DNA of 64,000 bases from Parasphingorhabdus marina DSM 22363. GTDB taxonomy: Bacteria > Pseudomonadota > Alphaproteobacteria > Sphingomonadales > Sphingomonadaceae. A program made the position numbers and the translations under genes. Location of the stretch: positions 1,550,001 through 1,614,000 of the forward strand of contig NZ_FSQW01000001.1 of NCBI RefSeq assembly GCF_900128895.1, in the 5' to 3' direction. Each line of letters begins with the position of its first letter. Position 1 is the first letter of the stretch. Below, in pieces: positions 1 to 29,046 of this stretch. The notes beneath the pieces were generated by a model that searched no databases, was not told the origin of the DNA, and worked only from the letters and a program-made list of their open reading frames with translations.

Positions 1-287
1 ATGCAGTCATCTTCAGTGGGATTGGCGACGCTGTCGATGGAAATATATTCCAGCCCGAATTTCCTGAGTTCCAGTTCCTTGATTACCTTGGGATGCAGAT
101 GTCCCATGATGAAGCTGTAGGTCGAAGCCTTGAATCCCGGAGAAAATTCTTCTGTGACCGCCGCGCCGCCAATAATGTCCTTCTGCTCCAGCACCAGCAC
201 CTTTTTGCCGGCCCGCGCCAGATAAGCGCCGCAGGTCAGACCGTTATGGCCACCGCCAACTATGATTGCGTCATATTTCCGGCTCAT
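1..287 (-). CDS. NAD(P)/FAD-dependent oxidoreductase, N-terminal part (phytoene-desaturase-like)
   Basis: Only the first 95 residues are in the window; the gene continues past base 1. The N-terminus (MSRKYDAIIVGGGHNGLTCG) carries the dinucleotide-binding GxGxxG fold near residues 10-17, followed by the typical LARAGKKVLVLE strand with its acidic end that binds the FAD ribose. The GGGHNGL form is typical of the COG1233 family (phytoene dehydrogenase-like and PYROXD2-like flavoproteins). The ATG overlaps the stop of the upstream small aconitase-X subunit by four bases (ATGA), so it is the last visible gene of the minus-strand operon that starts at the aldehyde dehydrogenase. Its substrate cannot be told. 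Confidence 0.85.
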   Translation of the reverse strand, partial: MSRKYDAIIVGGGHNGLTCGAYLARAGKKVLVLEQKDIIGGAAVTEEFSPGFKASTYSFIMGHLHPKVIKELELRKFGLEYISIDSVANPTEDDC

Positions 288-2056: not shown

Positions 2057-2806
2057 TCACATCATGATCCCGCCGCCATCGACAATCAGGGACTGGCCGG
2101 AAATAAAATCGCTATTGGGCCCCGCGAAAAAAAGCACAGCACCGAGCAGGTCTCGCGGTTCCTGACTACGTCCCAGCGCGCGTCCCTGTACAATCACCTT
2201 GTTGCGTTCTGCGATACCGTCCTTGGCCAGTACATTGTCGCTCATGGTCAGACCGGGCGCGATGGCGTTGACCCGGATATTGCGGTCGCCCAGCTCGGCA
2301 GCCATCGCCCGGGTCATCGCCAGCACTGCCCCCTTTGAAGCATCATAGTGCAGCATGTTCGCAAAGCCTTTGAAAATCCGGTTGGTGGCAATGTTGATGA
2401 TCGAACCGCCGCCCTGACTTTCCATCGAGGGAACCACTGCCTTGGCACATTGCCAGACCCCGCGCACGTTGACCCGCATCACCTGATCCCAAAGATCGTT
2501 GCTGATTTCTTCCATGGGCGAAGGTGGCAAGGTGCCGAACAGCGCAGCGTTGTTCACCAGGATGTCAATCGGCCCCAGTTCTTTCGTGATCCGATCCACG
2601 CTGTCGCAAAGAGAAGCGTCGTCGGTAATATCGGTTTCCAGCGCCAGCGCTCTGCCGCCAGCCTGTAAAATGTCGGCTGCCACGCTTTGCCCGTCCAGAA
2701 CATCCAGTATCGCGACAGCGGCGCCGGCAACAGCCATGCCGGAAGCCAGCTCTGCACCAATGCCCTGTGCCGCCCCGGTAATGATGACGGTTTTCCCCTC
2801 AAGCAT
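2057..2806 (-). CDS. Short-chain dehydrogenase/reductase (SDR)
   Basis: About 249 residues with a classical SDR layout: TGAAQGIG cofactor loop near residue 12, NNAA after the fourth strand, YDASK catalytic Tyr and Lys, and the C-terminal SGQSLIVDGG strand. The usual catalytic Ser, thirteen residues before the Tyr, is a Thr here, which still offers a hydroxyl. I prefer the ATG at 2806 (MLEGKTVIITG), preceded by GAGGAG, to the GTG at 2812. It overlaps the aldehyde dehydrogenase stop by eight bases and is followed by the aconitase-X pair, so it belongs to the same operon. It probably oxidises or reduces a secondary alcohol or ketone on the way to or from the aldehyde dehydrogenase; the substrate is unknown. 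Confidence 0.9.
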   Translation of the reverse strand: MLEGKTVIITGAAQGIGAELASGMAVAGAAVAILDVLDGQSVAADILQAGGRALALETDITDDASLCDSVDRITKELGPIDILVNNAALFGTLPPSPMEEISNDLWDQVMRVNVRGVWQCAKAVVPSMESQGGGSIINIATNRIFKGFANMLHYDASKGAVLAMTRAMAAELGDRNIRVNAIAPGLTMSDNVLAKDGIAERNKVIVQGRALGRSQEPRDLLGAVLFFAGPNSDFISGQSLIVDGGGIMM

Positions 2807-4328
2807 GGTCACTCCTCACAACCGTCGTTTTGGCTTCACTGTAGAAATCCACACTCCAGCGTCCGCCTTCGCGATCCAGGCCGGAATGGCCAAAACCACC
2901 AAATGGCGCGCCGTGCTCGCGGACCATCGGACTGTTGACCATGACATATCCGGTTCGCAGCTGGCTGGCGATCCCCCGGGCACGTTTCTGATCACCACTC
3001 CAGACATAGCCTGCGAGGCCAAACCGGCTGTCATTGGCGATAGCCACCGCTTCGGCATCGTCATCAAATGTCAATATGGAGGCAAAGGGTCCGAAAATTT
3101 CTTCCTGGCAGATCCGGTCCGCATTCGATTTGGGCAGGGCGACGACCGGATCGACATAATAGCCTTTGTCAAAATCCGTTGATTGTTGCTCACCGGTCAG
3201 AATCTGTCCGCCATCTTCACGCGCGATCTCCACAAAGGACAGCACCCGGTCCATCTGCGACTTTGAAGATTGCGGCCCCATTTCCGCACGTTCATCAAAG
3301 GGATCGCCAAGCCTGATCGCCTTGGCCAGATCCACGAAATCGGCGATGAAGCGATCCGCGATTTTCTTTTGCACCAATATACGGGAACCGGCGAGACAGG
3401 CCTGGCCGTTATTGCCATAGACTGCGCCAATTGCAGCCTGCAAGGCACAGTCATAATCCGCATCGTCGCAAATAATATTGGCCGATTTTCCACCCAGTTC
3501 CATGGTTACTTTGGCAAATCTCTGTGCGGCCGCTGTCGCAATGGCCCGTCCGGCATGCTCGCCGCCAGTGAACGATATCAGGTCCACGTCCGGATGAGCG
3601 GCCAGCGCTGAGCCGGTGATTTCGCCCCGACCGTTGACGACATGCAGCACACCTTCCGGCAATCCGGCCTTGTGCAGCAGCTTCGCCAGTTCCCAGGTGC
3701 CAAGCGGGCTCTGCTCCGATGGCTTGATCACGCAGCTGTTGCCCATGGCCAAAGCGGCGGCAAGCTTCAAAGACGCCGCCATAAGAGGGATATTCCAGGG
3801 CGTGAACAGCGCAGCAACGCCGGCGGGTTCGCGCGACACTGTCGTTACGATATCCTCCGCCGTCTGGAAGACAGTATGGTTTTGCTCGGCCAGCAAATCT
3901 GCAAAATAGTCAAACCAGTCGGCCGCCGCAGCCGTATGGCGCAGGGTTGATCGGTGGAAAAGCAATCCTGTTGTCTGACTGTCGAGGCTTGCCAGATTGC
4001 TGGCACTTTCCCTGATCAGGCCAGCAGTTTTGCGCAGCACATCCTGACGTGTTTCGGGTGCAGACTGTGACCAGATGCCATCAACAAATGCCTGCCGGGC
4101 TGTCTCTACAACCTGCGCCACCTGTTCCGGCGAGCTTTCCACAATCGTTGTGACATGGCTTTCATTGGCAGGGTTGGTCACTGACAAGCGGTCACCGTCA
4201 CAGATTCGCACACGGCCTGACAGCATTGTTCCAACCTCGATGATGTGGGGCAGGGATTGGGCTGTGCGCGTCAATTTGACCTCATCGGCTAGAGTTTGGC
4301 TGCCAGAACCATAGTTGTTCGGCGGCAT
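2799..4328 (-). CDS. NAD(P)-dependent aldehyde dehydrogenase
   Basis: 509 residues from the first ATG. ALDH superfamily marks are clear: TPWNIPL in the cofactor domain, SFTGGEHAGR, the general-base Glu in MELGGKSANI, the catalytic Cys in NNGQACLAGSR, and the late EEIFGPFASI motif. It oxidises an aldehyde to the acid in the cytosol. An in-frame ATG at 4229 (MLSGRVRI) is preceded by GAGG at good spacing and would give a 476-residue protein, close to the family norm; no Shine-Dalgarno is visible before 4328, so the true start may be the internal one. It is the first gene of the minus-strand operon and diverges from the GlcG-like gene across a shared operator-like element at 4380-4399. Confidence 0.92.
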   Translation of the reverse strand: MPPNNYGSGSQTLADEVKLTRTAQSLPHIIEVGTMLSGRVRICDGDRLSVTNPANESHVTTIVESSPEQVAQVVETARQAFVDGIWSQSAPETRQDVLRKTAGLIRESASNLASLDSQTTGLLFHRSTLRHTAAAADWFDYFADLLAEQNHTVFQTAEDIVTTVSREPAGVAALFTPWNIPLMAASLKLAAALAMGNSCVIKPSEQSPLGTWELAKLLHKAGLPEGVLHVVNGRGEITGSALAAHPDVDLISFTGGEHAGRAIATAAAQRFAKVTMELGGKSANIICDDADYDCALQAAIGAVYGNNGQACLAGSRILVQKKIADRFIADFVDLAKAIRLGDPFDERAEMGPQSSKSQMDRVLSFVEIAREDGGQILTGEQQSTDFDKGYYVDPVVALPKSNADRICQEEIFGPFASILTFDDDAEAVAIANDSRFGLAGYVWSGDQKRARGIASQLRTGYVMVNSPMVREHGAPFGGFGHSGLDREGGRWSVDFYSEAKTTVVRSDHA

Positions 4329-4878: not shown

Positions 4879-6180
4879 ATGGATATCCGCCAGAGCATAG
4901 AAGACCAGCCAGTATCCTGGTTGCAGTTGCTGGTGCTGCTGATCTGCTTTGCGCTGAATATTCTCGACGGCTTCGACATTGTCGCGATCAGCTATGCCGC
5001 CCCTGCGATCAGTGACGCCTGGTCCCTGTCCGCGACAAATCTCGGTATTGTTTTTAGCGCCGGTCTGGCGGGAATGACGGTCGGCGCGATGTTTCTAGCG
5101 CCGGTCACAGATGTTATCGGTCGCCGCAAGATGATCCTCATCGCCCTGGTCATCAACGCGATTTCACTGGCCGCGACCGCCTGGTCCCAAACACTCTGGC
5201 AGCTTGTGGCCGCCCGCTTCGTGGTGGGTCTCAGTATCGGGTCCATGCTGGCGAGCCTGACCGCACTGGTGGCGGAATATATGCCCGCCCGGCACCGGAA
5301 CCTCGCAGTCTGTATCTTGCAATGCGGCTATCCCATTGGCGCAACCGGCGGCGGTTTTCTCGCGGCCTGGCTGATCCCCGTTCATGGCTGGGAATCGGTT
5401 TTCCTGTTCGGTTTGTTGATCACGGTCCTTGCCATTCCGGTCGTATATTTCGCTCTGCCGGAATCGCTCGAATATCTGGCCAAAAGACGTCCGGCCAGTG
5501 CGCTGCAAATCACAAACAGGGTGCGGGCGAGGATGGAGCTCCCGGCATTGCATGAACTTGCTGAAGGAGAAGACAAAGACATTCCCTCGGCGCAGGTGCA
5601 TTCACTTTTGACGGCAGATAACCGGCGCAAAACATTGCTGCTCTGGGCTGCATATTTCTTCTGCTTTTTCACGCTCTATTTCCTGATCAGCTGGATACCG
5701 AAAATCCTTGTTGAAAATGGCTTTACCCAAGATCAGGGAATCAACGCGGGCATTGCATTCAACGGCGGCGGGATCCTGGGTGTGCTGATGCTCGGCTATC
5801 TTGCAGACAAAAAGGGACTGACCCGTCTGATCGGACTGTTCTTGGCGATCGGCTGCGTCAGCCTGCTGGCATTTGGTACCATCAGCGCCGGTTTTGCGGT
5901 TACCCTGTTGCTGAGTTTTGTTGTGGGAATCTTCGTCAATGGCGGCTTTGTTGGCCTTTATGCCATGGCCGCTGGGCTCTACCCGACCGAGATCCGCACA
6001 ACCGGGATAGGCTGGGCGATCGGGGCTGGACGTTTTGGCGGCATTGCGGGGCCTTATGTGGGCGGCCTGCTGGTTGCCGCTCAACTGCCGCTACCGCTCA
6101 CTATTGCAATATTTGCACTATCACTGATTTTCGCGATTGCAGCGGTTTGGTTGATGCCAAAGGACGCACTGGTGAGCTGA
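4879..6180 (+). CDS. MFS transporter, aromatic acid:H+ symporter type
   Basis: 433 residues with about twelve hydrophobic segments. The first helix holds LNILDGFDIVAISYAAP, the DGFD motif that in AAHS carriers (PcaK, BenK) binds the substrate acid; DVIGRRKMIL between helices 2 and 3 is the MFS signature, and PESLEYLAKRRP follows helix 6. The second half contains the ADKKGLTRLIG loop. It should import an aromatic or other hydrophobic carboxylate with protons across the inner membrane. It ends five bases from the convergent tautomerase stop and follows the GlcG-like gene, so it is probably co-transcribed with the latter. A short-chain acid is an alternative substrate. Confidence 0.88.
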   Translation: MDIRQSIEDQPVSWLQLLVLLICFALNILDGFDIVAISYAAPAISDAWSLSATNLGIVFSAGLAGMTVGAMFLAPVTDVIGRRKMILIALVINAISLAATAWSQTLWQLVAARFVVGLSIGSMLASLTALVAEYMPARHRNLAVCILQCGYPIGATGGGFLAAWLIPVHGWESVFLFGLLITVLAIPVVYFALPESLEYLAKRRPASALQITNRVRARMELPALHELAEGEDKDIPSAQVHSLLTADNRRKTLLLWAAYFFCFFTLYFLISWIPKILVENGFTQDQGINAGIAFNGGGILGVLMLGYLADKKGLTRLIGLFLAIGCVSLLAFGTISAGFAVTLLLSFVVGIFVNGGFVGLYAMAAGLYPTEIRTTGIGWAIGAGRFGGIAGPYVGGLLVAAQLPLPLTIAIFALSLIFAIAAVWLMPKDALVS

Positions 6181-6185
6181 ACGGT

Positions 6186-6389
6186 CTATTTCTTCGGTAA
6201 TTTTGTTCCGGGGTCCAGGCACTTGCCACCGACCGCGTAATTGCCTGGTTCAATTTCTTCTATCACCACCCGTACGTGGCTCGGATCGGGATCAATTTCA
6301 CGGTTCATCACTTCGGTGATTCCCGCGACCATACGCTGCTTGGTTTCCTGATCGCGCCCCTTGAGCATGGTGACTTTGACAATGGCCAT
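6186..6389 (-). CDS. 4-oxalocrotonate tautomerase family protein lacking Pro1
   Basis: 67 residues, the length of a single 4-OT subunit. It aligns along its whole length with 4-OT: Leu8-x-Gly-Arg11 (LKGRDQETK), the second conserved Arg in SHVRVVIEEI and the GNYAVGG hydrophobic pocket strand. The codon after the initiator ATG is GCC (Ala) rather than a proline codon, so the N-terminal catalytic base of the family is missing. The start at 6389 is well supported: GGAGG lies ten bases upstream. An ORF extension to 6440 exists but would bury the tautomerase N-terminus. It may act as an inactive or structural partner, or use another chemistry. Confidence 0.85.
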   Translation of the reverse strand: MAIVKVTMLKGRDQETKQRMVAGITEVMNREIDPDPSHVRVVIEEIEPGNYAVGGKCLDPGTKLPKK

Positions 6390-6455
6390 GGGAAGTTTTC
6401 CTCCAATTGATCCGGAATATTCGCGGACAAGGCTAGCCAAAGTGGCGAAACGCGT

Positions 6456-6475: not shown

Positions 6476-6536
6476 CGATTTGGGCATCGGCTCGTTAGCT
6501 TTTGGGCTCCAAAACTTTTTCGTCACGGATAACAGC

Positions 6537-7940
6537 ATGCAGCCAGTAGACGCGTCTCAGCCCCTATCCAATTCGCGCAAGGCCGGATACGGGGTCGGTG
6601 TTTACGGCATATTCCTGGCCTGGATGATGACCGCGATCACCCTGATGAACTTCTACACGGAAGTACTTGGGTTGTCAGCGCAGGATGCCGGAGCGATTTT
6701 TTTCATTGCCGCGATCTGGGACGCAATTACCGATCCGGTCATGGGTTGGATCAACGATCGGCTGAAGACGCGCTGGGGCCGTTATCGCCCCTGGTTACTG
6801 TTTGCGGCGGTACCTTTTGCGGCCAGTTTCGCGGCGATGTTCTGGAAGCCGGCTATTGGCAATACGGCTGATCTGTTCCTCTGGGCACTAGTGGTGCACC
6901 TGATATTCCGCACCTTCTATACCGCCGTCTACATGCCCTACACGGCGATGATTGCGCGGCTGTCAACCAACGGCAAGGAGCGCGCATCCATTGCCGGCGT
7001 CAAAAATGTATTTACCGCTGCGGCTGCACTCACTGTATCGTTCCTGATATTTGATGCCATCGAATTTTTCGGCGACCAGGGAAATGGAAAAATCGATGAT
7101 GCGCAGGGGTTTTGGATGGTGGCGCTGATCATCGCTTGTGTCGCGGTACTTGCGCTGTGGAGCTGTTTTGCCTTCACGCGCGAACCGCCTCTGGAACGCC
7201 TGGAAGATGAAAACGCGGCTGCCCAAAAAACGACGCTCGGAGACATCAAGTCGCTGGCATCCAATCGTGCATTCTGGATCGTGTTTTTCGCCGTGATCGC
7301 CTTCACCGGTTGCTACACGATTATCAACAAGGCAATCGTCTATTACAGCCAGTGGAATCTTGGTGACAGAACTCTGGCAAAATACTCGCTGACAGCCATC
7401 GGTCTGGCCGGAATTATTTCTCCGTTACTGTGGGTCCAGGTCAGCCGGATGAAGGGCAAATCAACAACCTGGATTTCCGGATGTTTGCTCGCCAGTCTGT
7501 GCCTTGGTGTAATCTTCGCGATCGGTGACATGAGTTTGTGGACACGAACCGCACTGTTCTTTCTGGCCGGTTGCGGGATTCATGCCGTCTTGATGACATT
7601 CTACGCTGCGCTCGCTGACGCGGCCGATTTCGGGGAATGGCAATCCGGCGTCCGAGTGGAAGCGCCGTTATTCGGATTGGTTTCCTTCGCAAACAAAGTC
7701 TCGCTCGGGATTGGTGCCTGGGCGCTGGGCTTCGGCTTGGAGGCAGCTGGCTACCAGAGCGGGAAGGATGTGATCAATCAGACACCAGAGGCGCTGGCTG
7801 CGATCGGCTTCTGGATGACAATCATTCCCATTTCCGGAATTCTGTTGTCCGCCCTGATCATTTTCTTTTTCCCGGTTAGCAACAGCCTGCATTCACAGAT
7901 CGAACGCGATCTCAGAGATTCGTCAACTCAATCGACATGA
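6537..7940 (+). CDS. GPH-family (MelB-like) cation symporter
   Basis: 467 residues from the ATG at 6537; a TTG at 6480 would add 19 residues but lies only five bases from the operator-like element and is preceded by no ribosome site. The glycoside-pentoside-hexuronide:cation signature is plain in helix 2 and loop 2-3: WDAITDPVMGWINDRLKT followed by RWGRYRPWLL. About twelve membrane segments follow. Members carry sugars, glucuronides or other organic anions with Na+ or H+. It lies upstream of the hydrolase gene with a 21-base gap, which suggests import and then hydrolysis of an ester or conjugate; the cargo is not known. Confidence 0.87.
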   Translation: MQPVDASQPLSNSRKAGYGVGVYGIFLAWMMTAITLMNFYTEVLGLSAQDAGAIFFIAAIWDAITDPVMGWINDRLKTRWGRYRPWLLFAAVPFAASFAAMFWKPAIGNTADLFLWALVVHLIFRTFYTAVYMPYTAMIARLSTNGKERASIAGVKNVFTAAAALTVSFLIFDAIEFFGDQGNGKIDDAQGFWMVALIIACVAVLALWSCFAFTREPPLERLEDENAAAQKTTLGDIKSLASNRAFWIVFFAVIAFTGCYTIINKAIVYYSQWNLGDRTLAKYSLTAIGLAGIISPLLWVQVSRMKGKSTTWISGCLLASLCLGVIFAIGDMSLWTRTALFFLAGCGIHAVLMTFYAALADAADFGEWQSGVRVEAPLFGLVSFANKVSLGIGAWALGFGLEAAGYQSGKDVINQTPEALAAIGFWMTIIPISGILLSALIIFFFPVSNSLHSQIERDLRDSSTQST

Positions 7941-7961: not shown

Positions 7962-8957
7962 ATGGTCACCGGTATGTCTGATTCATCGCCACGCAAATTG
8001 TCCCAACATTTGGTTGACCCGGAACTGCGGTCATTTGTCGATGCGTTTCCTGATGAAATTCTTACTATGGAAAAGCTGCCAGAAGTGCGGAAACGATTTC
8101 AGGAAAAGGCGGATCAAAATTTCGTGCGCGTTGTTCCTGCACATTTGGAACGCAAGGAGATTCGCCTGACCAGCCGGGACGGGCTGGCGGAGATAACTGC
8201 TCTGATGTACCTAAACAAGCAGGGCAACCGCCCATCCCCGGCTTTTCTCCATATTCACGGGGGTGGACTTGTCGCCGGCTGTGCCCGGGCCCATGACAGG
8301 CGGAACTTGCGGTTGTGTGGCGAACTGGGAATCACAGTTTTGTCGGTCGATTACAGGCTGGCCCCGGAAAATCCCTATCCTGCAGCCATGCAGGATTGTC
8401 TGGGGGCTCTGGACTGGCTGTTTGAAAATGCCGCGGCCGTCGGCATAGACCCGGCCGCCATTGCGGTCGGTGGCGATAGTGCCGGTGGAGGGCTTGCAGC
8501 TGGCTTGTGTCAGGCAGTTCGCGACGAGGGAACGGATTCCATTGCATCCCAGCATTTAGTGTACCCGATGCTGGATCATCAAACTGGAATGCCCGAGCAA
8601 CCGACAAACCCGCTGGTTGGCGAATATGTGTGGACGCCACAGAAAAATCAGTTTGGCTGGCAGTCATATCTCGGCCCACAAAAGCCTGTTTCCCCCGCCG
8701 TACCAGCTGCCGCCGAAAGATTGAATAATCTGCCGCCTGCCTGGATCTGGGTTGGTCAACTTGATCTCTTTCGCGACGAGAGCATCAGTTATGCCAATCG
8801 ACTGATGACTGAAGGCGTACCCACTGAATTACACGTCGTTCCCGGCGCGGTGCATGGATTTTCACAAGTGACAGATGCTGCGCTGACTGTTCGTTTCGAA
8901 TCAGAATATGTCGATAGCTTCCGGCACCTGCTTTTAGCCAATATCGATTCAACATGA
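7962..8957 (+). CDS. Alpha/beta hydrolase, hormone-sensitive-lipase type esterase
   Basis: 331 residues with the HSL-family oxyanion motif HGGG (IHGGGLVAGCA) near residue 100, the nucleophile elbow GDSAGGG with its Ser, and a C-terminal GAVHGFS that supplies the His; the acid is probably the Asp in QLDLFRDES. This is a soluble carboxylesterase or lactonase. The first ATG (7962) and a second one four codons on (7974, MSDSSPRK) are both possible starts; neither has a strong ribosome site. It is the last gene of the plus-strand unit beginning with the GPH symporter. Confidence 0.9.
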   Translation: MVTGMSDSSPRKLSQHLVDPELRSFVDAFPDEILTMEKLPEVRKRFQEKADQNFVRVVPAHLERKEIRLTSRDGLAEITALMYLNKQGNRPSPAFLHIHGGGLVAGCARAHDRRNLRLCGELGITVLSVDYRLAPENPYPAAMQDCLGALDWLFENAAAVGIDPAAIAVGGDSAGGGLAAGLCQAVRDEGTDSIASQHLVYPMLDHQTGMPEQPTNPLVGEYVWTPQKNQFGWQSYLGPQKPVSPAVPAAAERLNNLPPAWIWVGQLDLFRDESISYANRLMTEGVPTELHVVPGAVHGFSQVTDAALTVRFESEYVDSFRHLLLANIDST

Positions 8958-9675: not shown

Positions 9676-11025
9676 ATGCCTGTTCGATCAACTGAGGCGC
9701 CTAGGCCGACTGTGGCGGAAATGCTTGCCGCCGACAACCGCGCGGTGCCGGACGTTTTGCTCAACAAAGGTGAGGCGGAGGTCACCCTCAAGCCGATTCC
9801 CAAGGAAAGATATTACTCAGCAGAGTTTGCGAGCAAGGAGTTTGACGGCGTTTGGGGCAAGGCCTGGCAGATGGCGTGTCGGGTGGAAGATATTCCGGAA
9901 AAGGGTGATTACCTTGTCTACCAGATAGGCGATACGTCGCTTTTGATTGTGCGGGTCAGTGAGGACAGCGTCAAGGCGCTGCACAATGTCTGCTTGCATC
10001 GCGGCCGGCTGTTGCGGGATGAAGACGGCAAAGCGCGGGACTTCAAGTGCCCTTTCCACGGATTTGCATGGCATATTGACGGCCGTTGCAAGTTTATCCC
10101 GAATGAATGGGATTTCGGGCATATTGACAAGGATGCGTTCGGTCTCCCCGAAGCACGTGTTGAGCTTTGGGAGGGCTTTGTATTTGTCAACCTGAATGCA
10201 GATGCCGAGCCCCTGGAGGACTTTTTGGAGAACGTTCCAGAGGCTTACAGAACGAGAGGCTGGTCTCTCGGGGCGCGCACGAAAACTGTCCATGTTCAAA
10301 AAATCAACCGATGTAACTGGAAGGTCGCCCTCGAAGCATTTATTGAAAGTTTCCATGTCACTGAAACCCATCGTGGTGCGGCGCCATATCTTGGTGATGC
10401 GAACACGCAATATGATGTTTGGGAAAATTCCAAGCATACCCGCATGATTTCTCCCCGGGGATTGCACAGTCCGAATATCAGGCCGATTTCTGATGTCGAG
10501 GTTTTTCGGGCAGCAGTAAGAGGTGTCGCAGCTGATGAAATAGAAGTGCCGGACGGGGAGTTTGAACCGCGCGCCGCCATCGGTCAATTGCGGCGGCAGG
10601 GTCTGGTAGAGTCTGGCGTAGAAGTTGCCGAACAGGCAACCGACTCGGAATTGATAGACACCATTCACTACCATATTTTTCCCAATCTCGTGTGCTGGGC
10701 GGGCTGGGGATCATATTTGGTCTACCGGTTTCGCCCTTACAAGAAGGATCCGGAAATGTCCGTAATGGACATCATGTTTCTGGATCCGGCGGCCGAACCT
10801 TCTGGTCGATTGGAGCCACAGATCATCGGCCCGGATGCGAGTCATCATGAAGCCCCGCAACTCGGGGGGTATTGTGATGTGTTTGACGAAGATTCCGGGA
10901 ATCTCGAATCATTGCAGCACGGATTGCGTGCGATGACTACGGCCGGCCCGGTTACCGCCAGTTACCAGGAAGCACGTATCCGGCATTTTCATGAAATCCT
11001 TGGCCAGTATATTAAAGATGACTGA
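9676..11025 (+). CDS. Rieske non-haem iron oxygenase, alpha subunit
   Basis: 449 residues. The Rieske [2Fe-2S] ligands are C106-x-H108 and C125-x2-H128. The catalytic domain shows NWKVALEAFIESFHVTETH, giving His227 and His232 as mononuclear iron ligands with Glu224 at the position that is normally the bridging Asp. This protein hydroxylates or demethylates an organic substrate with O2 and electrons from a reductase. No ferredoxin, reductase or beta subunit is present nearby, so electrons must come from elsewhere. The ATG has GGAGG eleven bases upstream. It overlaps the P450 gene by eight bases and heads an operon of five genes. Glu as bridge is known from CntA-type enzymes; the substrate remains open. 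Confidence 0.92.
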   Translation: MPVRSTEAPRPTVAEMLAADNRAVPDVLLNKGEAEVTLKPIPKERYYSAEFASKEFDGVWGKAWQMACRVEDIPEKGDYLVYQIGDTSLLIVRVSEDSVKALHNVCLHRGRLLRDEDGKARDFKCPFHGFAWHIDGRCKFIPNEWDFGHIDKDAFGLPEARVELWEGFVFVNLNADAEPLEDFLENVPEAYRTRGWSLGARTKTVHVQKINRCNWKVALEAFIESFHVTETHRGAAPYLGDANTQYDVWENSKHTRMISPRGLHSPNIRPISDVEVFRAAVRGVAADEIEVPDGEFEPRAAIGQLRRQGLVESGVEVAEQATDSELIDTIHYHIFPNLVCWAGWGSYLVYRFRPYKKDPEMSVMDIMFLDPAAEPSGRLEPQIIGPDASHHEAPQLGGYCDVFDEDSGNLESLQHGLRAMTTAGPVTASYQEARIRHFHEILGQYIKDD

Positions 11026-12268
11026 CACTTTGACCCTCGAACAGAGATTTCGTCCGCGAGAGGACGGATTTATGAACAGTCCGGATGAAGGCTATCGTCA
11101 TTTGCGCCAGCGGGCCCCGGTTTGGGAAGAGCCGGAAACCGGCATCTGGTTTGTCACCACATATGATATTGCCGAGGAAATCATGCGTAATCATGACCGC
11201 TTTTCAAGCGCGGTCGACCGCATATCTATGCGCAAGGGGGGGCTACCTGAAAAGGCTCAGGAAATCCGCAAGCAAGGATGGCCAATGGCGCTGACCCTGA
11301 GCCACAATGACACGCCATCACATGATGAATATCGAAAACTGGTTGGGTCGTTTTTCATGCCAAAGCGGCTCAAGCAGGTTCGCCCTTTTGTGTCGTTGCA
11401 AATCCAGAATTTGCTGAACGATATCGAGAAGAAAACCGGCACTTTCGATTTTCTCTCCGCGTTTTCAGTCCCGCTGCCGATCGCGGTGATTGGCGAATAT
11501 CTCGGGATGCGGCATCTGGGTGATGAAAATCTAAAAATCTGGTCGGATGCATTTGCCGATGAAATCGGATTTCTGACAGATGATGACCGTGCGAACGAGA
11601 TTGCTTCACTTACTCTCGCCTGTCATCGGGAGATGGTTGCGCTTGCCGACCAGCGGCGCGGCCAACAAGGTGATGACGTGATATCCGCTCTCGCCAACGC
11701 GGAGATGCCCGATGGCAGGACGCTAGAAAATTCAGAAATATTGTCGATCCTTACCCAATTGCTGGTGGCTGGCAATGAGACCACGACTTCCACACTGAAT
11801 TTCGCGGTTACCCATTTCGCGCAGGTTCCCGACATGTTCGATCGGCTCAAGAGCAACCCGGATCTGGTTCCCCGCTTTGTTGAAGAGATCTTGCGGGTGG
11901 AAAGTCCCATTCAGGGCCAGTTTCGCAAGGCCGTGGGTGATCAGGAAGTGGGCGGTGTTCTAATTCCCGATGGCTCGCTTATTCACGTCCGGTTCGGTTC
12001 GGTTAATCGTGACGAGACAGTTTGGGGAGTAAACAGCGGATCCTTAGATCTGGATGCCAGGCAGCCAAAGCCGCACATGGCGTTTGGAAACGGAATCCAT
12101 TTCTGTGTCGGAGCCGCATTGTCGCGGCTGGAATTGAATGATGCGATTTTTGCTATGCTCGAGAGGTTCGAAGGCGTTAGGCTCAAGTGCTCGATAGATG
12201 AATTGCAATTTGCCAGACACTTTCATCAGAGACGAGTTAACTTGTTGCCTGTGGAGTTTATACGATGA
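11018..12268 (+). CDS. Cytochrome P450
   Basis: 416 residues when started at the ATG that overlaps the Rieske stop (ATGACTGA); another ATG at 10991 would overlap more. P450 marks: I-helix oxygen-binding AGNET at 251-255, ExxR at 290-293 (EEILR), and the haem loop FGNGIHFCVG with Cys363. It is a soluble class I bacterial P450 that needs ferredoxin and reductase, which are not encoded here. The ATGA junction with the TetR gene and the overlap with the Rieske gene show one operon. It probably hydroxylates the same substrate or an intermediate of the Rieske enzyme. Confidence 0.94.
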   Translation: MTDTLTLEQRFRPREDGFMNSPDEGYRHLRQRAPVWEEPETGIWFVTTYDIAEEIMRNHDRFSSAVDRISMRKGGLPEKAQEIRKQGWPMALTLSHNDTPSHDEYRKLVGSFFMPKRLKQVRPFVSLQIQNLLNDIEKKTGTFDFLSAFSVPLPIAVIGEYLGMRHLGDENLKIWSDAFADEIGFLTDDDRANEIASLTLACHREMVALADQRRGQQGDDVISALANAEMPDGRTLENSEILSILTQLLVAGNETTTSTLNFAVTHFAQVPDMFDRLKSNPDLVPRFVEEILRVESPIQGQFRKAVGDQEVGGVLIPDGSLIHVRFGSVNRDETVWGVNSGSLDLDARQPKPHMAFGNGIHFCVGAALSRLELNDAIFAMLERFEGVRLKCSIDELQFARHFHQRRVNLLPVEFIR

Positions 12269-12957
12269 ATGCTGCCAAGACTGACTCGGACTATGGGGGT
12301 TCGCTAAGAGATCCCGCTGCCCTGAACGAAGGAGAAATCAGAAGAAGCAGAAAAACCAGATTGCGAATACTCAATGCGGGCATGATCAGCCTGGCTGAAA
12401 ACGGGCATAAGAAACTGTCGACGACAATGGTCGCAAAGCGGGCAGGTATCACGAGATCTGCGATGCTTTATCATTTCGGCTCCCGCAAGGACCTGCTCCA
12501 TGCCATTATTCGACATGTAACCAGGAGGCGTCTGGCAATGTATCAGGACGCTATGGAGAAGTTGCCGCATGACGAAAATTTCCTCAATGCTGCGATCGAT
12601 ATCGCATGGGAACAGTTGCAGACACCCGAATTTGCTGCCTTTGCAGAACTGGCTCAGGCTTCCCGAACCGATAAGGAACTTGCAGAATTGTTCAATCCGG
12701 CGATGGCTGCATATGATCAGGAACGCAGAAAATGCGCGCTTAAACTCTTCCCTCAGAAGGAAACGGTTGGGCTGGGGTTTGACTTGCGACGTGACATCGT
12801 GCGCTTCTTGCTTGAAGGCATCGCTCAGCAGGATGGTATCACCTTTAACGAGAGGGAGCGCAAGGATTCCCTCGTGGTATTTCTGAAAACGTTAATCAGC
12901 ACATCGGCGGGGGTTCGGTTGCTGGAAAAATCCGTGGAAAATAGCAAGAAAACCTGA
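12265..12957 (+). CDS. TetR/AcrR-family transcriptional regulator
   Basis: 230 residues. The N-terminal helix-turn-helix lies at about 30-85 (RLRILNAGMISLAENGHKKLSTTMVAKRAGITRSAMLYHFGSRKDLL, read in two pieces here), with the typical YHF-x-x-K-x-x-L end of the DNA-binding domain. The C-terminal ligand domain is not recognisable by substrate. It overlaps the P450 stop by four bases (ATGA) and the MFS start by one. It is therefore part of the operon it likely controls; the TACA-N4-TGTA sites at 9620, 17208 and 17242 are the proposed operators. An efflux or catabolic substrate would be the inducer. Confidence 0.92.
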   Translation: MNAAKTDSDYGGSLRDPAALNEGEIRRSRKTRLRILNAGMISLAENGHKKLSTTMVAKRAGITRSAMLYHFGSRKDLLHAIIRHVTRRRLAMYQDAMEKLPHDENFLNAAIDIAWEQLQTPEFAAFAELAQASRTDKELAELFNPAMAAYDQERRKCALKLFPQKETVGLGFDLRRDIVRFLLEGIAQQDGITFNERERKDSLVVFLKTLISTSAGVRLLEKSVENSKKT

Positions 12958-14276
12958 TGGCGGCAGCGGAGGTTCCTCCGGCGGGCGAAAAGCCCTGGCC
13001 CGCCCCTGTCCTCGCATGGACGGCCCTGATCATATTGGCAATCGCCAACATTCTGTCCTATCTTGACCGGATAATCATCAACCTCCTGGTCGAACCAATA
13101 CAGGCGGATCTGGCGATCAATGACACCCAGTTCAGTCTGTTGCAAGGCTTGGCTTTCGGACTGTTCTACACACTTTTGGCACTTCCCATAGGGCGACGAG
13201 TGGACTCCCAGTCGCGGAAACCTATAATTGCCATCGGCGTAGCCGTATTCAGCCTTTTTTCACTTCTGTCCGGATTTGCAAAGACTTTTGGTCAGCTGTT
13301 TCTAGCGCGGGTGGGGGTTGGGGCAGGAGAAGCCTCTGTAACCCCCACTGCCTATTCCCTGATTTCGGACTATTTCCCACCGGAACGGCTGGGCCGCGCG
13401 ATGAGCATATTCACAATGACGGCATTTGTCGGGATCGGTCTCGCCTATATGGCTGGTGGTGCTGCAATTGCCGCAATCGCTGCATGGGATGCTCCGGGCT
13501 TGATAGATGACCTTGAACCTTGGAGACGGGTTTTTGTCGTCATCTCGATTCCGGGACTTTTTATCATACCGCTGCTCCTGATGTTAAAGGAACCCGAGCG
13601 GAGAGGGCGAAAAAGTGAAAAAATGCTGCCCGTGAAGCAGGTTTTTAGCCACATCTGGAGACAGGGGAAAGGCTTTGCCTTGCTGCTTGCGGGGTTTAGC
13701 ATGATCACAATGTCGGGCTATGCATCTACTGTTTGGACTCCTGCATTGTTCATTCGGGTCTTTGACTGGACGGCGCCGGAAATTGGTTTTGCCTACGGGG
13801 CGCTCTACCTCGTTCTTGGGCCAGCAGGAGCCATTCTGGCGGGTACGATTTGTGACAAAATGACGGCCAAAGGTTTTAAGGACGCGCCCTTGAGAGTGGC
13901 GGCCTTTGGCTTTGTGGGTACCGGGCTATTCGGTGGCATCGCACCGCTCTTGCCAAACGGGACATTGGCCCTGTCATGTTTTGCGCCGACCATGATCATG
14001 TCCACGATGCCGTACCCGATGGCGGCAACAGCTATTCAGTTGATCACACCAAACGAGCTTCGCGGTCAGGTTACGGCATTCTATTTGCTCATCATCAATG
14101 TCATCGGACTGGGGCTCGGGCCGATTGTTGTCGGTCTGTTCAGCGATTTTGCCTTTCCCCAGCCTGACGGGGTTCGCTACTCCCTTGCCATCGTCAATGC
14201 GGCGTGCGCACCGGTGGCATTGTTCTTCCTTGTCGGAGCATTTCGGCCCTATGCAAAACTCAGGAATTCCGCATGA
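12957..14276 (+). CDS. MFS transporter (spinster-like / ACS-type)
   Basis: 439 residues with about twelve membrane segments. Near residue 30 is NILSYLDRIIINLLVEPIQADL, the helix-1 pattern seen in spinster-like and hexuronate/anion MFS carriers of sphingomonads; GRRVDSQSRKPII is the loop 2-3 motif in degenerate form. An unusual hydrophilic loop with DAPGLIDDLEPWRR follows helix 5. Likely inner-membrane import of the cluster substrate after passage through the TonB receptor. Start and stop overlap the neighbours by one and four bases, so it is translated with them. Confidence 0.88.
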   Translation: MAAAEVPPAGEKPWPAPVLAWTALIILAIANILSYLDRIIINLLVEPIQADLAINDTQFSLLQGLAFGLFYTLLALPIGRRVDSQSRKPIIAIGVAVFSLFSLLSGFAKTFGQLFLARVGVGAGEASVTPTAYSLISDYFPPERLGRAMSIFTMTAFVGIGLAYMAGGAAIAAIAAWDAPGLIDDLEPWRRVFVVISIPGLFIIPLLLMLKEPERRGRKSEKMLPVKQVFSHIWRQGKGFALLLAGFSMITMSGYASTVWTPALFIRVFDWTAPEIGFAYGALYLVLGPAGAILAGTICDKMTAKGFKDAPLRVAAFGFVGTGLFGGIAPLLPNGTLALSCFAPTMIMSTMPYPMAATAIQLITPNELRGQVTAFYLLIINVIGLGLGPIVVGLFSDFAFPQPDGVRYSLAIVNAACAPVALFFLVGAFRPYAKLRNSA

Positions 14277-24143: not shown

Positions 24144-25490
24144 ATGGAAAATCAAAATACCGCTGCCAACGAGCTGAGCTTTAAACACCCTGCGATCGAG
24201 ATCGTCGCCTTGGATTCGCTTTCACCCAATCCCAAGAACTCGCGCACGCACTCTGCCAAACAGATTGTTCAAGTTGGTGCGAGTATCGAAAAGTTCGGGT
24301 TTCTCAATCCGCTGATTGTCGATGAAAAGGGCGTTGTGCTTGCAGGTCATGGCCGATTGGAAGCTGCCCGTGCACTGGGCCTAAAGGGCATCCCCATTAT
24401 CCGCCTGACCCATATGAGCGAAGCCGACAAGCGCGCCTACATGCTCGCCGATAACCGCCTCGCCGAATTGTCTGGCTGGGATCAAGCGAAACGCAGCGAA
24501 GAACTATCTTTCCTGCTCGAAACAGATTATGATTTTGCTGTTACGGGCTTTGAATTGTCTGATATCAATTTCGATGCAGACGTCGGCGAGCCCGAACTCC
24601 CCACCATTGAACCACCAGTAACTCTGTCTGATCCGGACGCTTTTGCGGTGTGCCGAGCGGGTGATGAATGGCATATTGGTGATCACCGCCTGTTAGTCGA
24701 TGATGCCCGCGATCCTGAGGTGTGGGACCGCCTGATGGCAGATGCTGGCAAAGCAGCTATGGTCATTGCTGATCCTCCTTACAATGTGCCGATTGACGGT
24801 CATGTTTCGGGTCTTGGCAAACACCGACACCGCGAATTTGCGGTTGCTTCCGGGGAAATGAGCGAAGCCGAATTTACGCAGTTCCTGCGCAGCGTGTTCC
24901 GCTTGTGCGTGATGCACAGCGCCGATGGTTCCATCCACTATCATTTCATGGATCACCGCCATATGCGCGAGATTATTGACGCTGCTGAAGGTGTTTACAC
25001 GGAACGCAAGCAGGTGATTGTCTGGAACAAGACCAACGCATCTAACGGGACCTTCTATCGCTCGAAGCATGAACTGGTCTTTGTGTTCAAATCGGGCAAG
25101 GCCAAGCATAAAAACAATTTTGGTCTCGGGGAAACTGGTCGTTATCGCACCAATGTCTGGGACTATCCCGGCGCAAATGTGCCTCGCAAAGGGCGTGACA
25201 AGGATCTTGCTGATCATCCCACGGTCAAGCCGGTCGCCATGATCGCGGATGCCATTCTCGATTGCTCCGATCCCGGCGACATTATCTGCGATCCCTTTCT
25301 GGGCTCGGGGACCACGCTCCATGCGGCACATATTACCGGCCGCCGCGGCTTCGGTATCGAGATCGACCCTCTCTATGCCGACACGATCATCCACCGCATG
25401 CGCGAGATTGGCGTGGAAACCGTTCATCGCAGCGGTGTGAGTTTCGATGAGATTGCCGCCTTTCGCCGTTCTGATGCCGGGGTGGCCTGA
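24144..25490 (+). CDS. ParB-domain DNA methyltransferase (N6-adenine/N4-cytosine, beta class)
   Basis: 448 residues in two parts. Residues 18-110 are a ParB/sulfiredoxin-like domain (LSPNPKNSRTHS, AGHGRLEAARALG). Residues 170-440 are an amino-methyltransferase: catalytic DPPY in VIADPPYNVP near 213, then the AdoMet-binding DPFLGSGTTLHAA near 390, an order typical of the beta class. Such fusions are common in alphaproteobacterial phages and integrated elements and precede DUF5681 and terminase genes, as here. It methylates DNA, perhaps to protect the element's own genome. The stop overlaps the next ATG by one base. Confidence 0.93.
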   Translation: MENQNTAANELSFKHPAIEIVALDSLSPNPKNSRTHSAKQIVQVGASIEKFGFLNPLIVDEKGVVLAGHGRLEAARALGLKGIPIIRLTHMSEADKRAYMLADNRLAELSGWDQAKRSEELSFLLETDYDFAVTGFELSDINFDADVGEPELPTIEPPVTLSDPDAFAVCRAGDEWHIGDHRLLVDDARDPEVWDRLMADAGKAAMVIADPPYNVPIDGHVSGLGKHRHREFAVASGEMSEAEFTQFLRSVFRLCVMHSADGSIHYHFMDHRHMREIIDAAEGVYTERKQVIVWNKTNASNGTFYRSKHELVFVFKSGKAKHKNNFGLGETGRYRTNVWDYPGANVPRKGRDKDLADHPTVKPVAMIADAILDCSDPGDIICDPFLGSGTTLHAAHITGRRGFGIEIDPLYADTIIHRMREIGVETVHRSGVSFDEIAAFRRSDAGVA

Positions 25491-25918
25491 TGACAGATGA
25501 TCGTGAAAAACCGGCAACCGATGATAATCGGAAAGGCGACTATGATGTTGGCTACCGCAAGCCGCCCGAACATACGCGCTTCAAGCCCGGTCAATCCGGT
25601 AATCCGAGAGGCAAGCCGAAAGGAGCCAAGGGTTTGAAAACGGATTTGCGCGAGGAGATGGCTGAACGGGTAACTATCAATGAAGATGGCAAGTCCAGAA
25701 AGATCTCAAAGCAGAGGTTGATGATCAAGTCGATGGTGCAGAAAGCAGCAAAGGGAGACGTGCGCGCACAATCTGCTGTTCTGGAACTGGTAATGCGAGT
25801 TTTTGGAGTCGAAGATAGCCGCGAGGGTAAATCTGGGCTTTCCAAACATGATCAAGCGTTGCTGGCCGATTTTGAAAAGCAACTGACGAACAATGGGGCA
25901 TCGAGCGATGGTTCATAA
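25490..25918 (+). CDS. DUF5681 domain protein
   Basis: 142 residues. The DUF5681 signature lies near residue 20-45: YRKPPEHTRFKPGQSGNPRG, followed by the KGAKGLKTDL basic stretch and a helical region with VQKAAKGDVRAQSAVLEL. Function is unknown, but it regularly stands between ParB-methyltransferases and large terminases, which would fit a DNA-packaging or small-terminase-like role. It overlaps both neighbours: one base with the methyltransferase and eleven with the terminase. Confidence 0.88.
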   Translation: MTDDREKPATDDNRKGDYDVGYRKPPEHTRFKPGQSGNPRGKPKGAKGLKTDLREEMAERVTINEDGKSRKISKQRLMIKSMVQKAAKGDVRAQSAVLELVMRVFGVEDSREGKSGLSKHDQALLADFEKQLTNNGASSDGS

Positions 25919-27428
25919 TGCAGATATGATCGGCCGTCTTGTCAAACTGATTGAACAGGCAGATGATCCGCAAGCCTTGTATGAAGAACTTTTGAAACGT
26001 GATTTTGGTCTGTTCATGCGCAAGGCCTTCCCGGCAATCGCGGGTGGTGCTGATTTAACCTGGAACTGGCACCTGGATGCAATTTGCTATCAGTTAAACC
26101 GAGTAGAAAGCGCTGATATACGGCGCCTTCTGGTGACCCTGCCGCCCCGTAACCTGAAGTCCATTACCATCTCTGTAGCATGGGTGGCATGGATGCTGGG
26201 CCAGGATCCTTCTCTCAATTTTGTCTGTGTCAGCTATTCAGGTGAGCTGGGTGGCAAGCTTGCTCGGCAATGCCGCACGATCATGGAGCAGACCTGGTAC
26301 AGGCGCATATTCCCGGGCACGGTTATTTCAGCCAAGCGATCGGCCACCCATGATTTTGAAACCACCGCTGGCGGAGGGCGCCATACGACTTCAATATCTG
26401 GTACACTGACCGGACGCGGTGGTGACATCATCATTATCGACGATCCAATCAAGCCTGATGATGCTTTAAGCGAAACAACGCGGGAAAATGTCAATGACTG
26501 GTATCGCACCACATTGTCCTCGCGCCTCAATGACAAAGCAAATGGAGCCATCATCTGCGTGATGCAGCGGCTGCACGCTTATGATCTCGCTGGATTGATA
26601 GTGGAAGACGGTGGCTGGGAACATTTGAACCTCCCGGCGATCGCCACAGAAGATGAATCGGTACCGCTCACCTATGGCCAGCTATGGACACGTAAGGAAG
26701 GAGATATCCTTCATCCGGAACGCGAGAGTTTGGAAACTCTGACTGACCTCAAAGGCCAGATGGGTAGCGCAGTCTTCTCCGCCCAATATCAGCAGGATCC
26801 AGTCCCGCCTCATGGCAATATGGTTGAGCCGGAGTGGTTGCAGAATTATTTCGCGCCGCTAGCACAATCGCTGCCAGGCCAAATCATACAAAGTTGGGAT
26901 ACAGCCAGCAAGGATGGCATCAACAGCGACTGGTCGGTATGCATTACCGCACATGTGAAGGGCCGGGATGTCTACATACTCGATGTCTATCGCAAGCGGC
27001 TTACCTTTCCAGAACTCAAAAAACAGGTCATCCGGTTGGCTGAATTTCATAAAGTTCAGGTATTGCTAATTGAAGATGCCGCATCCGGTACCCAGCTCAT
27101 CCAGGAACTGAGGCATGGTAACAATTCTGGAGTGCCGCGTCCGATGCCGCAGAAGCCGGAGGGTGACAAGGTGACTCGTCTGGCGGGTGTTACCGCGATG
27201 ATCGAAGTTGGGCAGCTACATCTGCCAGAACAGGCCTCTTGGCGCGCTGACTTCGAGTTAGAACTGCTGGGTTTTCCAAGCGCCAAATATGACGATCAGG
27301 TTGATGCACTCTCTCAATTGCTGAACTGGGTACGCAAACGGCCGGCACCGATTAGGACTGATACGGATGTTAGCAAGATGCTTTTTGGACAACTTTTTGA
27401 AGGTGGCGGTTACGAAACAAGTTTTTGA
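25908..27428 (+). CDS. Phage-type large terminase
   Basis: 506 residues from the ATG at 25908. The ATPase half shows LPPRNLKSITISVAW (a non-canonical Walker A of this terminase subgroup), then DIIIIDDPIKPDDALSE (Walker B with the coupling acid). The nuclease half has SWDTASKDGINSDWSV, LLIEDAASGTQLIQEL and a late YDDQVDALSQLL, giving the RNase-H-like metal-binding acids. It would cut and package DNA into a prohead. No portal, protease, capsid or tail gene follows in the window, which is unusual for a functional prophage. Confidence 0.92.
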   Translation: MVHNADMIGRLVKLIEQADDPQALYEELLKRDFGLFMRKAFPAIAGGADLTWNWHLDAICYQLNRVESADIRRLLVTLPPRNLKSITISVAWVAWMLGQDPSLNFVCVSYSGELGGKLARQCRTIMEQTWYRRIFPGTVISAKRSATHDFETTAGGGRHTTSISGTLTGRGGDIIIIDDPIKPDDALSETTRENVNDWYRTTLSSRLNDKANGAIICVMQRLHAYDLAGLIVEDGGWEHLNLPAIATEDESVPLTYGQLWTRKEGDILHPERESLETLTDLKGQMGSAVFSAQYQQDPVPPHGNMVEPEWLQNYFAPLAQSLPGQIIQSWDTASKDGINSDWSVCITAHVKGRDVYILDVYRKRLTFPELKKQVIRLAEFHKVQVLLIEDAASGTQLIQELRHGNNSGVPRPMPQKPEGDKVTRLAGVTAMIEVGQLHLPEQASWRADFELELLGFPSAKYDDQVDALSQLLNWVRKRPAPIRTDTDVSKMLFGQLFEGGGYETSF

Positions 27429-27556
27429 TCTGATTTTCAAAGCCCATCAAACTTTGTCTCAGGCAATCAATTGATAAGCTACCGAAGGGCAGTCAAATCG
27501 CATGTCCCGACAACAAAGCGGGCAGGCAAGCCCATCTGATAAAAGTTGGAGTTTGC

Positions 27557-28051
27557 CTAGATATCAAATAGTCTGCAGCAAAGTTCTTCGCTGTTGCTGA
27601 TTTCCTCAAACCAGCTCTGCGGGACATTGCGCAGATTGGGTCTGATCGCTTTTAGGCCTTTTGCGTTGGCCCGGCTGTGTTTGACAACGCGCTCTCCAAT
27701 GTCCGGAATTTTCACGCCAGCTTCGCTTCCAAAAAAGCGGTAGGATTTAACTGCCAATGTCGCCGGATCATATTCCATAATGATGACGCAGGCTGATGGC
27801 TTGTCGAGCAGCTTGTTGTGAACATTGATTTGGGCGCGCCTTCCGCCGGTGATCTTCGATTTGAGCTGGATATGCCGGACTTTGCCGCAGGCTTCGATAA
27901 TCAGGTCATAGCCATTGTCATCGATTTCACTATGCAACACTTCAAAATCATGGATGCCCCTGTTCCAAAGGCATTTTCCGATACCAGCCAGGAATTCATG
28001 TTCAAGAATTTTTTCCAGCCTATGGGAGTAGATATTGGTGGGTGCGTTCAT
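27557..28051 (-). CDS. Putative PD-(D/E)xK nuclease-like protein
   Basis: 164 residues from the ATG at 28051 (AGGG five bases upstream; a GTG at 28057 would add two codons). The segment EIDDNGYDLIIEACGKVRHI continued by QLKSK gives Asp, then about twelve residues, then Q-x-K, the degenerate PD-(D/E)xK arrangement of restriction-like nucleases and Holliday resolvases. The protein has no other recognised domain. It diverges from a 70-residue XRE regulator 94 bases away, a setting seen for restriction endonucleases and their controllers. Function is inferred. Confidence 0.6.
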   Translation of the reverse strand: MNAPTNIYSHRLEKILEHEFLAGIGKCLWNRGIHDFEVLHSEIDDNGYDLIIEACGKVRHIQLKSKITGGRRAQINVHNKLLDKPSACVIIMEYDPATLAVKSYRFFGSEAGVKIPDIGERVVKHSRANAKGLKAIRPNLRNVPQSWFEEISNSEELCCRLFDI

Positions 28052-28145
28052 GATCACCCTGTTTGCTTGGAAGAACTGACAAGTCCAGCAAAATGTAACT
28101 CATCGTCCGTGGACCGGAAAGCTTCAGGCTTGTTGAAGCTTTTTG

Positions 28146-28358
28146 ATGGATATCCGCAAACAGTTTGGCGCCAATGTTCGGAAACATCGTCAAGCCACCG
28201 GCCTCAGTCAGGAACAATTCGCACTTCAACACGATATTGATCGGACCTATGTCAGCGGTATCGAAAGAGGAAAGCGCAATCCAACAATTGTTATTGTGAA
28301 CAAATTTGCAAAAGCCCTGGACGTTTCAATTGCGGATTTGTTTGATGGCTGCGATTAG
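28146..28358 (+). CDS. XRE-family HTH regulator (controller-like)
   Basis: 70 residues, a bare helix-turn-helix domain: FGANVRKHRQATGLSQEQFA, then DRTYVSGIERGKRNPT and KFAKALDVSIADLF. The length and the RTYVSGIERGKRNP recognition helix match regulators found beside restriction-modification and phage modules (C proteins). It is read divergently from the nuclease-like gene and probably represses that promoter and its own. Its stop overlaps the stop of the next minus-strand gene. Confidence 0.88.
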   Translation: MDIRKQFGANVRKHRQATGLSQEQFALQHDIDRTYVSGIERGKRNPTIVIVNKFAKALDVSIADLFDGCD

Positions 28359-28582
28359 CTGGCGCAATCGCTAAGCATTGCTTCGACAGCCTCGCAAAGA
28401 ACGGTGATTTCGCCTGCCATGGCGTTGATCTGATTGACCTCCTGCAATGTATCCTCAATGTTTGTTGGTCGATGACCTGAAATTGAAAGTCTGTGCGCAT
28501 CTTCCAGCTTGCAGGTGATCAACGCAGATAACTTGCCGATAACGGGATGGATTGGGGTGTCTTGGTTTCGGGCATATGTCAT
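28355..28582 (-). CDS. Small hypothetical protein of the island
   Basis: 75 residues from the ATG at 28582. No family recognised. It is soluble, mostly helical (KLSALITCKLEDAHRL and EDTLQEVNQINAMAGEI), with a few Cys. Stops of this gene and the XRE regulator share bases 28355-28358. Similar short helical proteins are common next to DUF3489 cassettes, so I take it as a real gene, but the evidence is only an open frame and fitting packing. Confidence 0.45.
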   Translation of the reverse strand: MTYARNQDTPIHPVIGKLSALITCKLEDAHRLSISGHRPTNIEDTLQEVNQINAMAGEITVLCEAVEAMLSDCAS

Positions 28583-28802
28583 TTTGCAGACCAATCCGGG
28601 ATATTTGCTGAAAGTCCAGCCCCAGCTTTTAGTTTCATAAGAACATGCTCATTCGACTGGACTTCCGCCTGAAAGCAAGCATTGCTGCCAACGTGAATCG
28701 CAGCGCCCCGGTGGCTGCAACTGCCCTGATCATATGACAGTCGGGGCCTTGGGTGGTGGAAGCGCAGGCGTGGTGCCCGTGCCGAAATCAAGGACATCAT
28801 CC

Positions 28803-29045: not shown

Positions 29046-29046
29046 T

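Follow-up and report, generated by a model that had tools for sequence, protein, structure and literature searches.

An alanine-1 protein of the 4-oxalocrotonate tautomerase fold associated with aconitase X and LigM/DesA-like O-demethylase genes in three genomes

The stretch of Parasphingorhabdus marina DSM 22363 analysed here (contig NZ_FSQW01000001.1; 64,000 nucleotides, hereafter the window) carries on its minus strand, at 6186..6389, a short gene encoding a 67-residue protein of the tautomerase fold, MAIVKVTMLKGRDQETKQRMVAGITEVMNREIDPDPSHVRVVIEEIEPGNYAVGGKCLDPGTKLPKK. The gene opens with the codons ATG GCC ATT GTC, the ATG occupying 6389-6387 and the GCC 6386-6384, and its stop codon ends at 6186. 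A GGAGG ribosome-binding site (6400..6404, minus strand, reading CCTCC on the plus strand) lies ten bases from the ATG, and the only in-frame start codon further upstream is a TTG at 6440. To the left, an aldehyde dehydrogenase (2799..4328), an SDR oxidoreductase (2057..2812), the large subunit of aconitase X (AcnX, PF04412; 703..2043), its small or swivel subunit (PF01989; 284..769, the true start probably lying inside the ORF) and the beginning of a FAD-dependent oxidoreductase (1..287), which continues past the left end of the window, form a single run on the minus strand. The tautomerase gene stands outside this run, about 1.9 kb upstream of the aldehyde dehydrogenase gene that heads it, and is separated from it by two plus-strand genes, one for an HbpS-like protein and one for an MFS transporter (4879..6180) that is convergent with the tautomerase gene. 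On the other side, a gene for an MFS_2 transporter (6480..7940, plus strand, the true start probably further in) is divergent from it.

The remainder of the window offers several separate observations. To the right of the cluster, the plus strand at 9676-14276 encodes a Rieske oxygenase alpha subunit, a P450-like ORF of 425 aa, a TetR regulator and an MFS-like transporter (the P450 and MFS assignments made by eye), and no counterparts of these genes were found in the compared stretches of the two relatives described below. Further on, four minus-strand genes at 31990-37291, encoding a C5 DNA methyltransferase (closest to MTase_II in PADLOC), a PRTase_III-A-like protein, a protein of 681 aa that matches nothing in PADLOC, and a CARF6 protein, look from their sequences like a defence-type operon whose logic is unclear. 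Plus-strand ORFs at 24144-31109 resemble, by eye, a ParB/DNA-methyltransferase, a large terminase and a serine recombinase (the last without a PADLOC match), and this block may be a phage or integrated element adjoining the defence-like genes.

The short protein belongs to the tautomerase fold family, matching PF01361 at 52.7 bits (cut-off 22), and scores 55.6 bits against the curated 4-OT model TIGR00013, below its cut-off of 56.9. Its alignment with the solved 4-OT 1bjp is gap-free and pairs residue 3 of the protein with residue 2 of the mature chain, an offset due to the initiator Met, and therefore the Ala that follows the Met falls on the catalytic Pro1. Arg11 and Arg39 of 4-OT are both present, and Phe50 is replaced by Tyr. 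An AlphaFold model built from a two-row alignment predicts a strand-helix-strand arrangement (mean pLDDT 75.4, pTM 0.56), and its top PDB matches in Foldseek are 4-OTs (4fdx, TMq 0.73, 1.4 A).

Relatives were sought by a scan of a genome collection and by searches of 298, 32, 296, 4 and 385 genomes, overlapping sets in which one genome may have two handles. With the tautomerase protein, the collection scan returned a single locus, L034, in an alphaproteobacterial MAG (draft genome G324), which is 67% identical over residues 1-58, begins MAIVRVIMLEGR and encodes Ala1 by GCG. A second draft genome, G326, carries the N-terminal part of the gene on contig C212 (L110; MAVVTVTMLEGR..., Ala1 codon GCC) and the other end on contig C47 (L109); because these fragments share an overlap of 85 bases that has 3 mismatches, they probably represent one gene split in the draft assembly, the alternatives being an assembly variant or two near copies. 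The Pro1 column thus holds Ala in the window protein and both relatives, and Arg11 and Arg39 are kept in all three members, those of G326 being read from two contig-edge fragments. In both relatives an in-frame stop lies 5′ of the same ATG, with 17 codons (L034) or 4 codons (L110) and no start codon between; these closed frames, together with the ribosome-binding site, support the ATG and rule out a wrongly chosen start codon. Comparison of the window gene with L034 gives a pS of 0.80 and a pN of 0.19 (Nei-Gojobori, 56 codons, synonymous sites saturated), and the protein is therefore under purifying constraint. The original prediction, that a GCC codon puts Ala in place of Pro1, that GGAGG ten bases upstream sets the start, that Arg11 and a second Arg are retained and that the protein is not decayed, agrees with the ORF and the 1bjp alignment, in which the two arginines pair with Arg11 and Arg39, with the closed frames of the relatives and with the low pN relative to pS.

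Among the tautomerase matches delivered as loci, 101 were scored, of which 99 have a start codon where one is expected, giving 85 distinct N-termini; 82 of these read start codon-Pro, and the three that read start codon-Ala are the window protein and its two close relatives. The two loci without a usable start are L080, a contig-edge fragment, and L003, where the best-scoring stretch corresponds to the second half of a longer protein, the first half of which begins Met-Pro. When plasmids were searched with the tautomerase protein, 7 records came back, the best 38.2% identical; these stand outside this count. The rarity of tautomerases without Pro1, also anticipated in the original prediction, is evident in these figures, and the observation that it named as fatal, a CCN codon in homologues from the same cluster, was looked for and not encountered, the two homologues having GCG and GCC. 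A sequencing error or single-strain change is thereby ruled out, and since Ala1 recurs in two related bacteria with a shared gene set, it looks like a kept feature. In a tree of 85 rows, where G326 is represented by its L109 fragment (residue 1 lies outside this fragment, and the L110 fragment was left out as too short), the three Ala1-labelled rows stand beside one very long Pro1 branch (L141), and 2 label changes are needed. A single origin of Ala1 appears in 52% of 200 bootstrap trees, and because the 56 columns are too few, a single origin is not claimed.

The gene set around the Ala1 gene recurs in the relatives in altered order. At L034, genes for a LigM/DesA-like O-demethylase, an MTHFR-like protein, a CMD-family protein, a formyl-transferase/ACT protein (PurU-like), an alpha/beta hydrolase and a FAD oxidoreductase run in one direction and are followed, in the same direction, by the Ala1 tautomerase, the large and small AcnX subunits, a FAH-family protein and an MFS_2 transporter. 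Here 31 bases separate the oxidoreductase stop (7969) from the tautomerase gene (8001-8192), and 25 lie between the tautomerase gene and the AcnX start (8218). Between them, L034 and L144 hold an aldehyde dehydrogenase, the FAH-family protein and a LigK-type aldolase. In G326, the tautomerase gene comes after genes for the large and small AcnX subunits, a BNR/Vps10-like protein and one unknown gene, and beyond its other end lie the genes for the oxidoreductase, a GntR regulator, the demethylase and an MTHFR-like protein. Counterparts of the window genes are 76% and 67% identical in the relatives for the FAD oxidoreductase, 79% and 74% for AcnX small, 61% and 49% for the aldehyde dehydrogenase, 64% for the SDR oxidoreductase (L144:5150-5923; 49% to an ORF truncated where L109 ends), 56% for the MFS transporter (L144:11375-12715) and 46% for the MFS_2 transporter (L034:10764-12158). 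Left of the window, P. marina has further genes with counterparts in G324 or G326, namely those for a GntR regulator (57% identical), the demethylase (76-77%), an MTHFR-like protein (46-48%), PurU (70%), an isochorismatase-fold protein (69%), an amidohydrolase (70%), a LigK-type aldolase (68%) and a TonB-receptor-like protein named by eye (37-41%).

From these gene-by-gene counterparts, the three genomes have a catabolic gene set in common, its order altered, although not every gene was seen in each; common to all three are aconitase X, the FAD oxidoreductase, the LigM/DesA-like O-demethylase, folate C1 enzymes, an aldehyde dehydrogenase and an SDR. Two smaller features of these loci may be recorded separately. 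Two CrtO/CrtI-like FAD oxidoreductase homologues (L034:6278-7969 and L034:12255-13832) flank the tautomerase-AcnX genes at L034, and one was seen in the corresponding stretch of the window's genome; the BNR/Vps10-like protein, 46% identical between the window's own genome (G000; L147:17640-18710) and G326 (L110:676-1665), adjoins a protein of 180 aa (L147:17101-17643) or 208 aa (L110:128-754) without any Pfam match.

The association with aconitase X was found only for AcnX of high identity. The large subunit of the window is 70% identical to that of G324 and 73% to that of G326, and an AcnX of at least 70% identity occurs, among the genomes searched, only in these three. Outside these three, identity peaks at 51% in the family, where 18 of 298 genomes, the window's own among them, matched with an E value of 1e-20 or lower. 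With the limit set at 1e-90, it peaks at 50% in the order sample (11 of 296 genomes matched, two of them G324 and G326) and at 49% in the class sample (2 of 367, one being the window's own genome); the best plasmid AcnX reaches 54.5% (160 records). No tautomerase gene was found in the 21 regions whose AcnX is 29-55% identical (L053-L073, some of them ending early at a contig edge), which rules out a general tautomerase-AcnX linkage, and neither the demethylase nor the FAD oxidoreductase was found there; this survey is one of regions with wide flanks, and L153, L154, L155 and L159 fall outside it. The high-identity AcnX and the Ala1 tautomerase thus occur together in 3 of 3 genomes, with no further close relative of either in the genomes searched. 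This is an association and not proof of joint function, because the three cases may be one old cluster passed on. Judged from the sequences, Ala1 marks a constrained small group, three members of which were found, that is tied to one gene cluster.

Several genes of the cluster give clues to its pathway. The combination of an aldehyde dehydrogenase, a FAH-family protein and a LigK-type aldolase recalls the lower pathways of meta-cleavage, in which 4-OT acts. Against the NCBIfam LigM model (cut-off 580), the L034 demethylase passes at 591.1, and those of P. marina (555.4) and G326 (561.3) fall below; all three (596-619) are below the DesA cut-off of 800, and the closest solved relative of the L034 enzyme is LigM. 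The LigK-type protein of G324 (364.2, cut-off 304.5) and the PurU of P. marina (333.1, cut-off 285.95) pass their models. Together, the demethylase, LigK-type and PurU genes point to methoxylated, perhaps methylenedioxy, aromatics as starting compounds. BrdA-type THF-dependent enzymes also cleave methylenedioxy groups (PMC5547118), and methylenedioxy cleavage and O-demethylation are indistinguishable from the sequences here. A ring-cleavage dioxygenase common to the three genomes was not seen in the compared cluster stretches, nor an extradiol dioxygenase beside the Ala1 tautomerase genes in the annotated ones. As for AcnX, residues C137, C317 and C376 of the window protein align with the three Fe-S cysteines of TkAcnX (ligand numbers from PMC8184944). 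Hydroxyproline catabolism, suggested by the AcnX name, is not supported, the window protein scoring 230.6 bits against 700 for the cis-3-hydroxyproline dehydratase model, a comparison between a fused one-chain model and a two-chain AcnX. AcnX types IIc-f, in the available text of PMC8184944, show none of the residues that mark either known activity and have yet to be characterised.

Our preferred reading, held tentatively and with slightly less than even confidence, is that the window gene encodes a functional 4-OT-fold enzyme in which an N-terminal Ala has become fixed in a small group, the Ala1 amine serving as proton-transfer base or acid in the pathway of the cluster. It is favoured because Ala1 is present in all three members (codons GCC, GCG and GCC), the arginines are kept, the protein is constrained, its predicted fold is 4-OT-like and its gene is linked to AcnX. 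Removal of the initiator Met is expected for Met-Ala and would leave the free primary amine of Ala1 in the position of the Pro1 amine, near Arg11 and Arg39, whose retention means that the pocket could still bind a carboxylated enol substrate. The amine may then act as base and acid in one keto-enol or enamine-imine tautomerisation, the substrate presumably being a carboxylated enol or enamine of a pathway that would combine folate-dependent O-demethylation, an AcnX dehydratase, the FAD oxidoreductase and the aldehyde dehydrogenase; changes elsewhere in the active site could offset the loss of Pro1. Reports on Pro1 enzymes count against a catalytic Ala1, because changing residue 1 costs activity: a residue other than proline brings a severe drop (PMC6389900), P1A 4-OT lost its function in a Michael addition (PMC9400869) and P1G MIF-2 was inactive, its crystal having retained Met (PMC8405996). 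Also against the proposal are the small number of members, three, the fact that no shared ring-cleavage dioxygenase was seen and the position of the window gene outside the AcnX run. The fuller claim, of a natural Ala-for-Pro 4-OT-fold enzyme whose primary-amine catalysis, of the general-base or imine kind, is a fixed step in an undescribed route from LigM/DesA-type O-demethylation to an AcnX dehydratase, is more doubtful, and we offer it as a possibility.

The N-terminus might instead be unused, the protein being catalytically silent or acting through other residues, for example by binding or regulating AcnX or the oxidoreductase. This possibility is named in PMC5818174 for members without Pro1 and would suit the linkage to AcnX in three genomes, but a purely structural role would not call for the two catalytic arginines, both of them retained, and we regard it as improbable, if deserving of some weight. 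Besides the simplest reading of Ala1, a tautomerase with different tuning, there is the bolder one of imine chemistry, in which the Ala1 amine would form a Schiff base with a keto or aldehyde group and drive decarboxylation, retro-aldol cleavage or hydration in place of tautomerisation. Both carboxylate-binding arginines are available for it, and the LigK-type aldolase/oxaloacetate decarboxylase and aldehyde dehydrogenase of the cluster make carbonyl acids likely to be present, although a LigK-type decarboxylase/aldolase is by the same token already encoded there. Brik and others reportedly found in 2002 that engineered P1A 4-OT decarboxylates oxaloacetate, of which such an enzyme would be the natural counterpart. 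Amine (iminium) catalysis is established on the 4-OT scaffold, but the P1A construct lost function in the reaction tested in the same work (PMC9400869), and we consider imine chemistry unlikely.

The protein could also be the non-catalytic subunit of a hetero-oligomer with a Pro1-bearing partner, since heterohexamers of the tautomerase fold exist (3mb2, 8t9o, 8t9p). The partner genes of such heterohexamers as a rule lie nearby. The original prediction had raised this role, with another mechanism as its alternative, and looked to the genome for a Pro1 partner; a Pro1 member (L002) is indeed present in P. marina, but the two other PF01361 members of this genome are unlinked to the cluster (C2:121457 and C1:1061377), searches of the drafts G324 and G326 for PF01361 and PF14552 turned up no further gene, and a profile scan of the window, L034, L109 and L110 gave no second tautomerase ORF. 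A partner gene was thus found beside the Ala1 gene in none of the three genomes, two of them drafts, and because the two other P. marina tautomerase genes lie elsewhere and G324 and G326 yielded none, a Pro1 partner is very unlikely and the suggested subunit role is not sustained. That the gene reflects a sequencing error, single-strain mutation, wrong start or decay is barely credible, given Ala1 and the same start in two other genomes, one with a different codon, and few amino-acid changes against saturated synonymous sites.

The road to non-Pro1 members of the tautomerase superfamily is reportedly the subject of a 2022 study by Lancaster et al. An Ala1 tautomerase-fold protein is not new as such, because PMC5818174 already counts 346 sequences that lack Pro1 in a superfamily of more than 11,000, and places 13 of the 346 in the 4-OT subgroup. 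Ser, Ile and Ala are the commonest replacements; none of these proteins had been biochemically characterised at the time, according to its available text. A recurring Ala1 group tied to an AcnX/O-demethylase cluster, and any paper joining oxalocrotonate tautomerase and aconitase X, were not found in the literature searched, outside which most subscription papers fall. The available text of PMC5818174 leaves open the role of Pro1-less tautomerase-fold proteins and that of PMC8184944 the activities of AcnX IIc-f; as one cluster ties the Ala1 tautomerase to AcnX and its demethylase hints at starting compounds, both become testable with the products of their neighbours.

Compared with 4-OT (2-hydroxymuconate tautomerase, PF01361/TIGR00013), the window protein is alike in length, beta-alpha-beta fold, Arg11, Arg39 and Leu8, and differs in having Ala for Pro1, Tyr for Phe50 and a TIGR00013 score below the cut-off, and in that its gene is found together with AcnX and O-demethylase genes. 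It resembles the non-Pro1 members as described in PMC5818174 in that it lacks Pro1, aligns well and keeps the other active-site residues. For the 13 cases of the 4-OT subgroup, compared by description, the available text names no conserved group or pathway, whereas here three genomes share a cluster. With the engineered P1A variants of 4-OT (PMC9400869) and SAR1376 (PMC5431793), the change disrupting activity and leaving the structure intact in the latter report, it shares the scaffold and the residue change; the engineered proteins are Pro1 enzymes that have been knocked out, whereas the Ala1 of the window protein is natural and kept.
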